Of a stretch of 64,000 bases of DNA, positions 532-55,900 are shown piece after piece (position 1 is the stretch's first letter; every line of letters starts with the position of its first letter). The notes under the pieces are model-generated. The model saw only the letters and a program-made list of their open reading frames with translations, had not been told where the DNA came from and made no database searches. This stretch comes from Diplonema papillatum (Eukaryota > Euglenozoa > Diplonemea > Diplonemida > Diplonemidae), in contig JAPJBO010000184.1 of assembly GCA_030068145.1 (NCBI GenBank), forward strand, positions 186,001 to 250,000, read 5' to 3'. Position numbers and translations under genes: made by a program.

Positions 532-3500
532 GTATCGCCTCTCTGCATTTCTTTTTTGGACAACATGGCTTATATGGCCAGCCTACTTATCATAAACTGC
601 TTATATGGCCACTAAAGTTTCATAAATTGCTTATATGGCCAGCAATGTTTCAGAAAACTGCTTATATGGCCAGCAATGTTTCAAAATACTGCTTATATGG
701 GTCGATTTAAAAAAAAGGGGGGGGGGGGGTTCACTTCTGGTCGGGTTTTTTTGCTTTCCGTTGATGTTCACACAGCTCAGACACAAGGAATCATCCCAGA
801 AAGTTGTTTTAGGAGGTCTTCTGACCATAAACTTGGAAAAGCCATCAACACAACATGAAAACAGCCCCAAAATGGGGAATTCACCCTATTTTCAATCATT
901 TTGGGGCAACTGTGGTGTGGTTGCTGTGCAATGCCTTTTTGTCGCTGCTCCACTGGAAGAACCCCCAGAATGCCTTGGAAACCCCCCAGAACACTCTGGA
1001 AGAACCCCAGAACACCTTTGGAAGACTCCCAAACCACCTTGGAAGACCCCAAACTACCTTGAAAGACCCCCAGAACACCTTGGCAGAACACCTTCAAGCC
1101 CCCCAGAAAACCCCTGGCGCACGTTGGCAGACCCTCAAACCACCTTACGAGACCTCTTGAACACCTTGGAACCCCTGGAGCACCTTGAAAACCCCCCGGC
1201 ACACCTTGGACGACCTTCAGAGCACCTTGGAACACCTTGTCCGGGGAGTCTTCCAAAGTGTCCTGGGGGGTTTTCCAAGGTGCTCTGGGTGTTTCCAAGG
1301 TTGTAAGGGGGTCTTCCAAGGAGTTCTGAGGAGTTTCCAAGGTGTTCTGGAGGGTTTTCAAGGTGTTCTGGGGGGGGTTCTAGGGTATTCTGGGGGGTTT
1401 CAAGGTGTTCTCGGGCTTTCCAAGGTGTCTGGGGGCTTAGCAAGGAGTTCTGGGGGGTTCCAAGATGTTCAAGAGGTGTTTTGAGGGTCTGCTAACATGT
1501 GCCAGGGGTTTTCCAATGTCCTCTGGGGGCCTTGAAGGTGCTCTGCCAAGGTGTTCTGGGGGTCTTTCAAGGTAGTTTGGGGTCTTTCAAGGTAGTTTGG
1601 GGTCTTCCAAGGTGGTTTGGGGGTATTCCAAGGTGTTCTGGGGTTCTTCCAGAGTGTTCTGGGGGGTTTTCAAGGCGTTCTGGGGTGGAGCAGCGACAAA
1701 AAGGCATTGCACAGCAGTCACACCACAGGTGCCCCAAAATGATTGAAAATAGGGTGAATTCACCATTTTGGGGGCTGTTTTCATGTTGTGTTGATGGCTT
1801 CTCCAAGTTTATGGTCAGAATACCTCCTAAAACAACTTTCTGGGACGATTCCTTGTGTCTGAGCTGCGTGAACAGCAACGGAAAGCAAAAAACCCGACCA
1901 GAAGTGAACCCCCCCCCCCCTTTTTTAAATCGACCCATATGGCCAGCAATGTTTCAGAAACTGCTTATCACTCATTCCACGAAAACGTGTCATAGATTTT
2001 GCGTCGTGCGATCCGCCATGTTTAGGCCAAATTTTGAGCAAAATTCGGAAATCTTTTTTGGGATGGAGCGTGTATCGGCACCTTTTTGGAACTCGATATA
2101 GCCAAAAATCTGACCCCCAGATGGCACTTTAGACGTTTTTCGGCCGATTTCCGGGCCCCCCAAAAAACACTCCTCGGAGGAATCGAACCAAGTACCCCCA
2201 GAACCACAAGTGGGTGTGCTACCCGTTAGACCACGGGCGAAAAAAACGCGGACGATTTCATTTTTTGTATTTGAACGATCCTTCCGGAAGTTCGCGTGAC
2301 CCGCCAGGAAATCTGTGGAAGCACCACCACTGCAGCAGTACCGGTACTACTGAGCTCACAAACGCTCGACGCAGCGAGGAACCGAACCAGTGACCATTTT
2401 ATTGGTTCGTGCGAGATGAAGAGAAAAATATTTTCGGATTTTTGGCACAAATAGCATAGCCGTCATTGCACTCACCAATGACTCTTTTGGTCGCCGGTTC
2501 GAGTCCCGCGGGTGGGTGTTTTTTTTTCTCAAAAAAAATTCGAGCGATCCGCCATGTTGAAGCACATTTTCGGGATTTTCCGCCAAATTTTTGGAGAACC
2601 GCGTAGTTCTGTCACTGAACCATATCGGCACCCCCGTAGATTTCTGTGGCGAGTCAAATCTGACTTGTTCCTGCATGCCGAGAAAAAAAAAGTCGATTTT
2701 CAGACCCCATTTTTTTGAGACCCGGCCTCCATTTATGGGGGGGGGGGGGGGGGGGGGGGGTCGGTCAAAATTCTTATCCGACCTATGCCATATAAGCAAT
2801 TTTGAAACATTGCTGGCCATATAAGCAATTTTCTGAAACATTGCTGGCCATATAGGCAACTTTTTGAAACATTGCTGGCCATACAAGCAATTTTGAAACA
2901 TTGCTGGCCATATAAGCACTTTACGCCTTCTTTTTTACATCCCGGTAAGCGCCAGCTTGGAAGGAAATGCTGGACGAAGCCAGTGACAAAGAACCGAAGG
3001 GATCCCAAGTGCTGTTACTACCGAGCCAGTTTGACACATGAACGAAAACACGAGCTATCCCAAATTAGAAACAGCAGGGCCTGAGGGACCACACACTATG
3101 CACACTTCAGCAGAGCAGGCTCCTGTTGCAGAGGCCATCCACTGCACAGCGATCTCTTGCATTCCACTGTGCACATTTCTCCACCGCAGGGCACCTGTCA
3201 CACAATATGCAGGCCCCTGTTGCACCACACTACGCACAGTCCACAAAATCAGGCTCCTGTTGCAGGAGCCATACAATGTACAGCGGCTCCTCTTGCATTA
3301 CCCCGTGCACATTTCTCCACCGCATGGCTCCTGTCGTACACGGCGCCTGTTGCACATTTCACCAGCAGATTCGTGTTGCACAATATATTCAAATTTCATC
3401 ACAGCAGGCTCCTGTTGCACAATATGCAGATTTCACCACAGCAGGCTCTTGTGTGCACAATATGCAGATTGCACCACAGCAGGCTCTTGTGTGCACAATA

Positions 3501-52900: not shown

Positions 52901-55900
52901 GGGGTGTTGCTGCCGCTGCCGTGCTTGCGTTCACCTTCTTCCTATGCTTGTAGGGCCCATGTTGCCCATTCAGCGCACTTGTCTCCCGGGCAGCTGGCAC
53001 GCGTAGAGCCACACTCCGGATTACCGCGTGGTTCCCTTCGCATAGGCGTCCAGGGCCTGCATTCGGGTGGGTGCCCGAACACCGGCCTTTGGTCCGCCTC
53101 CGGCTGAAACCATCTAGAGCGCTGTGTCGCCCCCTGTCAGAATGTGTTGAGAGGTGGCCTTTTCGTTGCACCCTCCTAAACCACATATCTCCGTTGTGCC
53201 GTTGTGTAGAATCGATTGCCTCACTAGCGCACTGCTCCGCTGGACCTCCGGAGTTGCTGCTCTGTGGCGCGTTTAGTCGCTCTCTGATGCTCGAGGGTCC
53301 CCCGTGCAAACCTGCCGATCTCTTCCATCTGCACTAGGCCGGCGGCATCTTGGGCGCATACATATTGATCCACATCAAAGACGCTTCGTCCGTTCAGCAC
53401 TCTTCCTGCTGCCTCGTCCGCTTTTTCATGTTTACGAAACCTCACAAATTCTGACTATTATGGTCGAGCCCGAGTGTTACATTGATGGGCTGTGTGGAAC
53501 TCCTCACTGCGGCAACAACAATGTCAAGATCCCTGCTTGGGCAAAGCCTCCGTGCCGAAGCGTGTCGGGAAATGGTAGGCATGCTCGGACCGACTGGAAG
53601 TATTCGCAACAGTCAGGCGGCCGCTTCTGCCCAGGGTTCCCCGCTCCCCGCTCACGTCGCTATTGTAGAGTGTGTTTCACTGTTGTGAATTTGGCACGAC
53701 ACCACTCACAGTGCGTCTCTCTTGCCTCCGTTTCTTCTCATTTTGTAGACGCTTTTCCTCGGCAGCTGTCAACTAGCTCAACAAAAGTCTCAGGGTAAAG
53801 GGGCTGGACAGTGCGTACAGTTCCAGTTGGGTGCGCGCTGCTCCTCTCATCCTTTTTCAACGGCGCCGCTGTCTATCAGGGGAGATGATTCCCATCAAGG
53901 CCCCCAACAACCCTGCCCAACTCAGTCCGAGGGGTAGTGCACATCGACCAAACCTCCCCAGTTTTCGATCTCGCAATTTTTCACGCAAAACCCCCTATAA
54001 ATCACTGTTTTGGACTGAAAAACACCTGAATTCACTTGTAATTTTTACTAGTGCACTAGTAAAATTTACTAGTGCACTTGTAAATTTTACTAGTAAAAGT
54101 GTAAATTTTACTAGTAAAAATTTTTACTAGTAAATTTACTAGTAAAAGGGTCATTTTACAAGTTTACTACTGCACCGTGAACGTCCGTGAGGGGGGGGGG
54201 GGGGGGGGAGGGGGGGGTCAGCCGGCTGATGGATGGATGGATGGTTCTTAACAAGATGCCTGGGGGGGGCAAGGGTACCTGTAAATCCAGGGTCTCCGGG
54301 CCCCGGGTTAGCGCTAGGGTCCAGATAGGGTCCAGGCCCACGGTAATCACGCCATCCAAGGATGGAATCTTCAATATTGCAGCTTCCACAACAAGCGGAG
54401 AGCAAGACGAGAGAAAATCAAGAAATAAACTTGATACAATTTGATGAAAAAAGCTCACAGTCGTGCATTTACCATAGGGGCTGAGCGGGCGGAGGCTCTA
54501 AGGTGAAATGGTCAAAATGCCCTGGGAAAAATGTGGGACAAAAACTTTCCGAAATGCGGGTTTTTAGGGATTCCGGCCAGGGGGTTATGCACTGCAGCGG
54601 TTGGGTGAGGTAACTCACCCAAAAAAAAAAAAATCGAAAATCAGGTGGGAGGTTGGGTTGATTTACACTACCTCGGATTGGGTTGGGCAGGAGTTTGGTG
54701 TCTGTAATCTTGGGTTAGGCAGAGGTTTTGGGTGTCGGTAGTGGGAATTATTTCTCCTATTCTGGCTGTGCTACTGAAGAGGGGCGAGACCTTTCATCAG
54801 AACAATCATCAGTAGGCTAGGTGTCTTCTGGAGGACACGCTGCAGAAGGTCCTGCCTTAGCCAGGACATCAGATTCTGAGGCACCATGTACCATACCGTC
54901 TCCCAGGGGGCGGTGCCCCCTGGACCCCCCCTGCATTAAGACTCACCAGAGAAAATGGGCTTGGTGTCTAGTCTGAAGGAGAAAATGGGCTGCATAAGGT
55001 CCTGACTGTTCACCCTGAAAAAAAAAAAACAACGCCAAAATCCCGCGACAGCTCGCCGAAGGCGCCGGGATCGCCCGCCAAGTGGAGCTCCTGCGTGCGG
55101 AGATCTCGCGGGAGAGCTCGAAGAAGGCGCGCGAGTGCCGCGAGCTGAGCGCGCGGGTCGAGTTCCTGCAGGCGGAGGCCGACGAAGCTGCCGCGGCGCA
55201 GGTCGGGCTGCGGGGGCGGCTGCAGAAGAACCAGGAGCAGACCAGGGCCCTCGCTGCCGAAAACGCGGCGCTGGTCCAGGAAACCGTCGCACATTCCACC
55301 GCTTCCGCCCAGCTGGAAGCCGAAAAAAGAACCCTCCGCGACCATGTCGAAGCCGCCCAACGCGACGCCTGCCTCCTGCGTGAAGAGTTGGACCAGCTGC
55401 GAAGCGTGCAGACCACAGCTGGCACCTGCGTGCGGTGCTCCGCGCTGCTATCGGCGCTGAACGCGAAGGCCCGCGAGCTCGAGATCGCGCAGGAGGTCCT
55501 GCAGCACACCGACAAGCTCTGCGCTTCCGCGGCCGCCCACCCTGGCACCGACTCGACGGAGCAGCTACGGCAGCTGCAGGCCCTCCTGGCGACGGCCAGC
55601 CGCGGGGACGCCGAGCGCTTTGCGCCCGAAAAATCGGTATGCCGCGGCTTGTCTTTTTGTTTTAGTATATGATCCGGTGGCCTTACTTGGATGTACAAGG
55701 GGGTGTGCTTGGGAAGTACTTGGGAAGCTCACGGGAAGTACTACATGCAAAAATCTTGCCAGAAATCGCAGTTTTACCCTATTTGGGGTTTACAAGGGAA
55801 GTACTTGGGAAGTTCTTAATAAGTTCAAGGTGAAGTTAAGTTTTCTACCTGCTTTGTCGAAAATACTTGAGGAGGCTGCCAGTTGCGAAAGATCAAAGAA

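Follow-up and report, generated by a model that had tools for sequence, protein, structure and literature searches.

Elements bounded by tandem arrays in a 64 kb window

Here we report on a 64 kb window of the Diplonema papillatum genome (contig JAPJBO010000184.1, hereafter C184, positions 186001-250000, of the 271 Mb, 2910-contig assembly GCA_030068145.1), in which tandem arrays stand in the terminal or subterminal regions of mobile elements that we designate A, A2, B, C, D and F (Table 1). The mirror-image arrays among them are the true ends of several unrelated jumping-gene families, two of which, A and B, have the known foldback Mutator design.

Arrays were detected by Tandem Repeats Finder (TRF), an inverted-repeat search (25 longest of 225 pairs) and blastn, and the inverted array pairs of A, B and C are backed by all three. 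Systematic pairing of 30 window arrays with periods of 8-130 yielded five inverted pairs, belonging to A, B, C and A2, and two direct pairs. In 200 unit-shuffled control sets the mean number of matching pairs in either orientation was 0.09 and the maximum one, against seven in the real window. An initial annotation, made from the letters alone, had described A, B, C and D as having mirror-image arrays at or next to their ends and F as having GGAAAC runs at both, and had not listed A2; pairing, TRF and blastn bear out the mirror-image arrays of A, B and C, while the arrays of D and F run in direct orientation. The arrays of C do form an inverted pair, but their 21-bp unit is approximately its own reverse complement, so that orientation tells little in this case.

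Table 1. Array-bearing elements of the window and associated features (positions in the window;. where no strand applies)
Feature	Position	Strand	Remarks
Element A	558..2927	.	MULE/foldback type; ends GGACAACATGGCTTATATGG / GGCGTAAAGTGCTTATATGG; A2 nested inside
Target duplication of A, left and right	549..557 and 2928..2936	.	TTCTTTTTT
Left array of A	568..700	+	30-31-bp unit GCTTATATGGCCAGCAATGTTTCAAAAACT; split by A2
Right array of A	2787..2922	-	inverted
Element A2	699..1936	.	long foldback, inserted at ATAT within left array of A
Element B	37319..43062	.	MULE/foldback; ends CGGAGAAAACCATAAGGGAAGCAC / GAGACAAAACCATATCGGAAGCAC; duplication AAAAATAAT exact; carries D and piggyBac-type element
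Left array of B	37371..37513	+	~21-bp unit TGTTTCCGATAAATATTTTTT
Right array of B, first part	38789..38849	-	split by D
Right array of B, second part	42837..43011	-	
Element D	38850..42836	.	inverted ends TGAGCCAATTCACC; inserted in right array of B; 5-bp duplication GAAAC
Left array of D	38888..38954	+	CGATTACA
Right array of D	42709..42813	+	CGATTACA, direct orientation
PiggyBac-type element inside D	38993..41109	-	flanked by TTAA on either side, with an additional T ahead of the right one
Element F	47431..48660	.	GGAAAC runs 47479-47509 and 48601-48631, direct orientation; limits given are provisional
Element C	51345..54179	.	non-autonomous; ends CACGGTGCAGTAGTAAA; 2-bp duplication AA
Left array of C	51407..51501	+	21-bp near-palindromic unit
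Remnant of C-type ORF2 protein	51598..51914	-	residues 321-355 and 379-421, 42-49% identical; tblastn, E 1.6e-6
Right array of C	54033..54115	-	
G run near C insertion	54191..54208	+	18 bases, 11 bp from insertion

Genome-wide searches with the end motifs gave 663 matches for B, 622 for C (at most one mismatch), 1684 for D, 1099 for F and 81 for A2, against 0, 2, 1, 0 and 0, respectively, for the reversed motifs. At least 36 convergent end pairs less than 10 kb apart were counted by eye for each of B and C among the matches listed, which cover the first 100 places of the 663 and of the 622. Boundaries at the array ends hold in most of the other copies of A, B and C read at fetched loci (L numbers below). 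Flanks were joined into 42 queries and searched against the fetched loci and the window; four of them matched across the junction at a different site, and two further hits, for L048 and L052, fell within the same locus and were not counted. The insertion of a full-length B at L017 has its empty site at L023, identical in 140 of 140 bases around the junction, and that of the B copy at L024 has a counterpart with mismatches at the site. For C, the insertion at L034 is matched by unoccupied sites at L045 and in the window, and that at L045 by an empty site at L049, which agrees exactly across the junction itself but shows gaps of 2 and 3 bp close by. B and C thus pass the test set beforehand, which looked for array ends as boundaries in other copies and for empty sites.

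Target duplications measure 9 bp for A, 9 bp for B, 2 bp for C, 4 bp for A2 and 5-6 bp for D. Together with the empty sites of B and C, these duplications establish transposition, and their differing lengths argue for several transposases and not for a single mechanism that reads array ends.

Elements A and B have the Mutator/foldback design

The ends of A recur at L051, L052 and L055, and its arrays are found in the window and at the same three loci; the 9-bp duplication is exact in three of these four copies and has one mismatch in the fourth (L053 and L054, whose ends are not clear, were excluded from scoring). The unit, initially given as 33 bp, is 30-31 bp long. By eye, A (558-2936) seems to sit in an intron of a gene for a coiled-coil protein.

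Element B was sampled in 22 copies (20 loci, the window and L057); at L017 the inner end pair was used, the outer pair having no duplication and possibly representing a chimera. The 9-bp duplication is exact in 18 copies, five of which have pure A or T runs and are less telling, shows a one-base difference in two more (L012 and L057) and is lacking in two (L016 and L019). By inspection, the duplications of both A and B are A/T-rich. The first unit of B starts 34 bp from the end on both sides in 18 of the 22 copies, with units opposite in orientation at the two ends.

Two full-length copies of B, at L057 (345-6379) and L017 (1983-8059), are 99.1% identical over 6.0 kb. Each has at its two ends inverted arrays that share one unit sequence, and one long open reading frame (ORF), of 1250 and 1249 amino acids, respectively. 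Pfam identifies the Mutator-like element (MULE) domain PF10551 in the L017 ORF (E 1.6e-8), and a genome search with PF10551 also detects it in L057, the copy on contig C21. The longer members of B, in which a transposase was to be sought, therefore do contain one, and with the 9-bp duplications this vindicates the likeness to Foldback transposons that had been noted, as far as A and B are concerned. In L017 and L057 the long frame of B continues without a stop across the array and translates it as a repeated peptide of seven residues, the 21 bp of the unit making 7 codons.

The PF10551 search gave 150 scored matches genome-wide, most of them without an internal stop. One copy each of four further MULE families was picked from this table, not by the presence of an array. 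Inverted arrays with units of 30-33 bp were present in three of the four: L058 (1001 aa), L067 (999 aa) and L059, which the table lists with 1281 aa. The 9-bp duplications of L058 and L067 are exact; at L059 the arrays were seen at the junction of two tandem copies and would represent both ends of one element. The five MULE proteins are 24-33% identical pairwise over their aligned parts. By eye, the L067 unit TTATATGTCCGACATAGTTTCAAAAGTTGTC looks homologous to the A unit TTATATGGCCAGCAATGTTTCAAAAACTGC, and judging by this resemblance A is probably moved by the MULE transposase that L067 carries, or by a sister of it. Among A copies and array-ended MULEs, inner arrays of ~12-13 bp with GGTC/AAAATTT-like motifs were also seen at L051, L054, L055, L058, L059 and L062, and MULE copies lie in the same direction at a spacing of ~5.3-5.5 kb, as tandem elements, on contigs C459 (three copies) and C1755 (two).

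Long relatives of C encode two proteins, and C inserts close to C/G runs

Element C was scored in two sets, the first favouring long copies and the second consisting of the next ten complete pairs in list order. The 2-bp duplication is present in 18 of 21 copies of the first set (L043, L044 and L049 fail) and in all ten of the second, 28 of 31 overall, where a two-base match is expected by chance about once in 16.

Two copies that share the C ends contain a frame, ORF2, which is 615 aa long in L043 and broken up in L048. The L043 ORF2 matches at least 81 places, including groups of 8, 12 and 16 copies with equal score and frame length, and it is well conserved in L068 and L069 (50 and 51% identity), which have CACGACGCAC ends, TA duplications and near-palindromic arrays of ~22 bp. 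The ends in the C group, CACGGTGCAG and CACGACGCAC, are CACG and not CACTA. Zinc fingers lie at the C-terminus of ORF2 in L068, L069 and one L048 frame but are absent from the L043 frame. L048, L068 and L069 also carry, upstream and in the same orientation, an ORF1 of ~350 aa with 36-38% identity (the L069 frame is cut at its start), so that both ORFs are present in three C subfamilies. When 19 other C copies were searched by tblastn with ORF2, 12 matched at E ≤1e-3, the window copy included, and seven did not. L046 and L049 were considered as autonomous C copies and rejected: their ORFs match hAT, reverse transcriptase RNase H and tyrosine recombinase, and most likely belong to nested inserts.

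Pfam returns nothing for the L043 ORF2 even at E values as high as 10; besides their zinc fingers, the L068 and L069 proteins have weak, unrelated Pfam matches below the cut-off, none of them to a CACTA transposase model. Relatives of ORF2 were found neither in viral contigs (single-protein and alignment searches) nor in prokaryote genomes (alignment search), and searches against solved structures gave no match, or matches in the zinc-finger region only (best E 0.17).

Most insertions have a C/G run of at least 8 bases no more than 40 bp away (18 of 21 copies of the first set and 9 of 10 of the second); at these 27 of 31 insertions the run is 2-15 bp away, with a mode of 11. Long C runs likewise stand 6 and 12 bp from the left end at L068 and L069. 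Random positions are near such a run in 2.5% (window) or 2.7% (fetched loci) of cases, and none of 22 B end pairs is. The probability of at least 27 of 31 at a rate of 2.7% is ~1e-38 if all insertions are independent, which not all are, since some targets lie in shared repeats. The run is already there in the empty sites of L034 and L045 and is consequently the target, not a product, of insertion. Neither a strand preference of C relative to the tract (mixed in both sets) nor a side preference (tract on the GGC side in 14 of 18 in the first set but 3 of 9 in the second) could be upheld. Among the papers listed on homopolymer and G-quadruplex targets, one on LINE-1 and that on MuTAnT included, titles and abstract openings name no DNA transposon favouring C/G runs, which is no proof of absence in print.

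Inheritance and growth of the arrays

Array history was followed by comparing the k-th unit from the outer end across copies with units at other positions, in edits, against 300 order shuffles. In the left arrays of A (four copies) units at the same position differ by 1.69 edits and those at different positions by 4.76; in the two arrays of B (19 and 18 copies, with L026, L028 and the window left out and right arrays of at least three units) the values are 1.08 against 1.60 and 0.91 against 1.23. None of the 300 shuffles reached the observed value in any of the three. Unit order is thus common to copies in the left array of A and at both ends of B, which indicates that the arrays were inherited along with the element. 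The order in the left array of A is anchored at the outer end, the figure rising to 3.71 edits when units are counted from the inner end.

Array size also varies: the left array has 19, 24 and 35 units in three uninterrupted copies of A, and in B the number of units at one end does not correlate with that at the other (r = 0.10 in 22 copies, not oriented by end type). The left array of L051 has 14 near-identical units at its inner edge, a block that the other three left arrays of A lack and that reflects a recent local expansion. A process that expands terminal repeats, one of the two mechanisms originally put forward, accordingly finds some footing in the variable array sizes and in this one block among four A copies, but the arrays are mainly inherited and not remade at each insertion. 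Exchange between the arms was considered as the cause of uniform units and rejected: the two arrays within an element stand 4.26 (A) and 1.37 (B) edits apart, against 4.30 and 1.34 for a left array and a right array taken from different elements.

Explanations weighed

We favour, with a probability of roughly 75%, the reading that several independent cut-and-paste families, and not one class, have arrays in their terminal or subterminal regions, with A and B belonging to a Mutator/foldback radiation and C to a separate two-gene group. On this account a MULE transposase, encoded by full-length B and by related families, would act on the ends of A and B and make the 9-bp A/T-rich duplications, and would also move short copies that retain only the ends. 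The C group is set apart by its CACG ends, 2-bp duplications and near-palindromic units of ~21-22 bp, and by its insertion near C/G runs. In each group the arrays would be part of the transposon and copied along with it. The unit may be bound by the transposase of its own family or by a helper protein, which would account for its being constant within each family yet varying from one family to the next; copy number might then drift through slippage or gap repair, as the inner edge of one array seems to show.

A single system that moves all of these elements by reading array ends, the other mechanism originally put forward, would account for the presence of several families with the array-at-end design within one 64 kb window. 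It is very improbable, and largely refuted by the duplications of 9, 9, 2, 4 and 5-6 bp; the proteins are also unrelated (MULE against the ORFs of C), the outer ends differ, and so do the targets, with A/T-rich duplications in B and C/G runs near C but at 0 of 22 B end pairs. Ordinary satellites that are inverted by chance could be expected in a window so rich in satellites, and yet the seven array pairs against a shuffled mean of 0.09, the convergent end pairs of B and C, the duplications and the empty sites refute this explanation for A, B and C and leave it a negligible chance overall.

A more serious alternative, although we think it unlikely, is that the arrays are passive: satellites that have grown by slippage within transposon ends and play no role in movement. 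The varying unit counts of A, the uncorrelated counts at the two ends of B and the inner block of L051 are all as it predicts, as is the retention of duplications by copies whose arrays are largely gone, namely L028, a B copy with a 9-bp duplication and only a few units, and L035, a short C copy with a 2-bp duplication and no left array. These two copies may mean that a full array at each end is not needed, or that it was lost later. Passive growth does not readily explain the fixed distance of the first unit from both ends of B, the recurrence of arrays, built of different units, across several MULE families and the three subfamilies of C, or the unit order preserved across copies.

L028 and L035 count against the explanation we favour, and they are not alone in doing so. 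The fourth of the further MULE families, L062, has a 29-bp array on the right only, with none in the 2.7 kb before its ORF in the one copy read. Counting from the inner end fits the B arrays nearly as well (1.19 and 0.97 edits), and the right arrays of A, which have few units, show no common unit order (176 of 300 shuffles reach the observed value). No transposase was noticed in the copies of A that were read, of which no domain scan was made. Beyond the zinc fingers, ORF1 and ORF2 of the C group have no Pfam match above the cut-off, and no search marked ORF2 as a transposase.

C fits no family tested. We tentatively propose, with rather less confidence than for the reading as a whole, that C and its relatives form an undescribed two-gene superfamily, characterised by CACG ends, duplications of 2 bp and subterminal arrays of near-palindromic units, with ORF1 separate from a zinc-finger ORF2. 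Such elements would choose targets roughly a helical turn away from poly(C)/poly(G) (mode 11 bp), perhaps through the unusual structure of the tract or a protein covering it. The competing possibility, somewhat less probable but a real contender, is a diverged CACTA element. En/Spm, of this type, starts with CAC, makes 2-3-bp duplications and has subterminal repeats and two genes, and C resembles it in its CAC start, 2-bp duplication, subterminal repeats and two genes. C differs in its CACG ends, near-palindromic array units and C/G-run target, and no CACTA transposase model appears among the Pfam matches of ORF2 in L043, L068 and L069. A profile search of the genome with PF02992 (Transposase_21) found nothing, which speaks only weakly against CACTA since all 14 control genomes were silent too.

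Comparison with known array-ended transposons

Tandem units in transposon ends have been described elsewhere, and we compare the present elements with the published systems. Tm1 of root-knot nematodes, a Mutator/Foldback family, makes 9-bp duplications, has ends with a variable number of 13-15-bp tandem units and includes a MULE-domain transposase in one member, its copies being mostly non-autonomous; no target preference is seen in that account (PMC3169594). A and B are like Tm1 in their 9-bp duplication, their composite ends differing in unit number between ends and their asymmetric outermost bases, and B also in having a MULE transposase in a member and mostly non-autonomous copies. They differ from Tm1 in unit length (21 bp in B and 30-31 bp in A against 13-15 bp) and in their A/T-rich duplications, where Tm1 shows no target preference; moreover, several families occur here in one genome, in contrast to the one family of Tm1. 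The MuTAnT MULEs of Medicago have modular foldback ends, 9-bp duplications and TA-microsatellite targets (PMC4486113), and A and B share with them the foldback MULE type, the 9-bp duplication and the simple-sequence targets, although these are mostly A- or T-rich tracts and not TA microsatellites. A and B are new members of this known foldback-MULE kind with tandem-unit ends.

Internal tandem repeats in the ends also link the present elements to Galileo and Tetris of Drosophila. Tetris has units of ~220 bp, with no autonomous copy found (PMC4079207), and Galileo has a P-type transposase (PMC3169594), unlike the MULE of B. Extra transposase binding sites lie in the internal tandem repeats of Galileo, as cited in PMC4079207, and by analogy only they suggest that the units described here may be binding sites as well. 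According to a proposal cited in the account of Tm1, different transposase lineages acquired foldback ends independently of one another (PMC3169594).

Array-type ends are usually described element by element. Here they occur in several diverged MULE families and an unrelated group within one genome, which allows direct comparison of how arrays originate, are inherited and grow. The C group offers a possible new transposase and a target rule of unusual precision, namely C/G runs at a distance of about one helical turn; this rule is directly testable and could serve targeted insertion.

Nested elements and other satellites

The stretch 37319-43062 has real B ends and consists of three nested elements: B, D within B and a piggyBac-type element within D, the last with a match to DDE_Tnp_1_7 (E 5e-12) in an ORF at 39553-40329. 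The arrays of D, which had been called mirror-image, have the same orientation in the window, L060 and L061, and only its short ends are inverted. Target duplications of D measure 5 bp in the window copy and at L026 and 6 bp at L061, with that of L060 unclear, and many D ends stand alone among the matches listed. The D copies of the window and of L026 are each inserted in an array of B, and both were met while reading B. The two GGAAAC runs reported for the ends of F exist, on one strand and not as mirror images. One side of F ends in a C run of variable length in the three copies read (window, L063 and L064); on the other, the similarity between the window and L063 extends further out, and L064 does not share it.

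A2 is built largely of inverted arrays of ~21-bp CCAGAACACCTTGG units, with arms of ~540 bp in L065 and L066, and ATAT flanks both sides in all four copies read (window, L055, L065 and L066). Two of these four (window and L055), both met while reading A, lie within an A array at an ATAT of the A unit.

The window also holds a 53-bp satellite (12690-15125) flanked on the left by inverted sequence of its own kind (12527-12691), in which 80 bp (12612-12691) are 91% complementary to 15075-15154, and a 3.9 kb array of 116-bp units (5793-9719) with a higher-order period of 467 bp.

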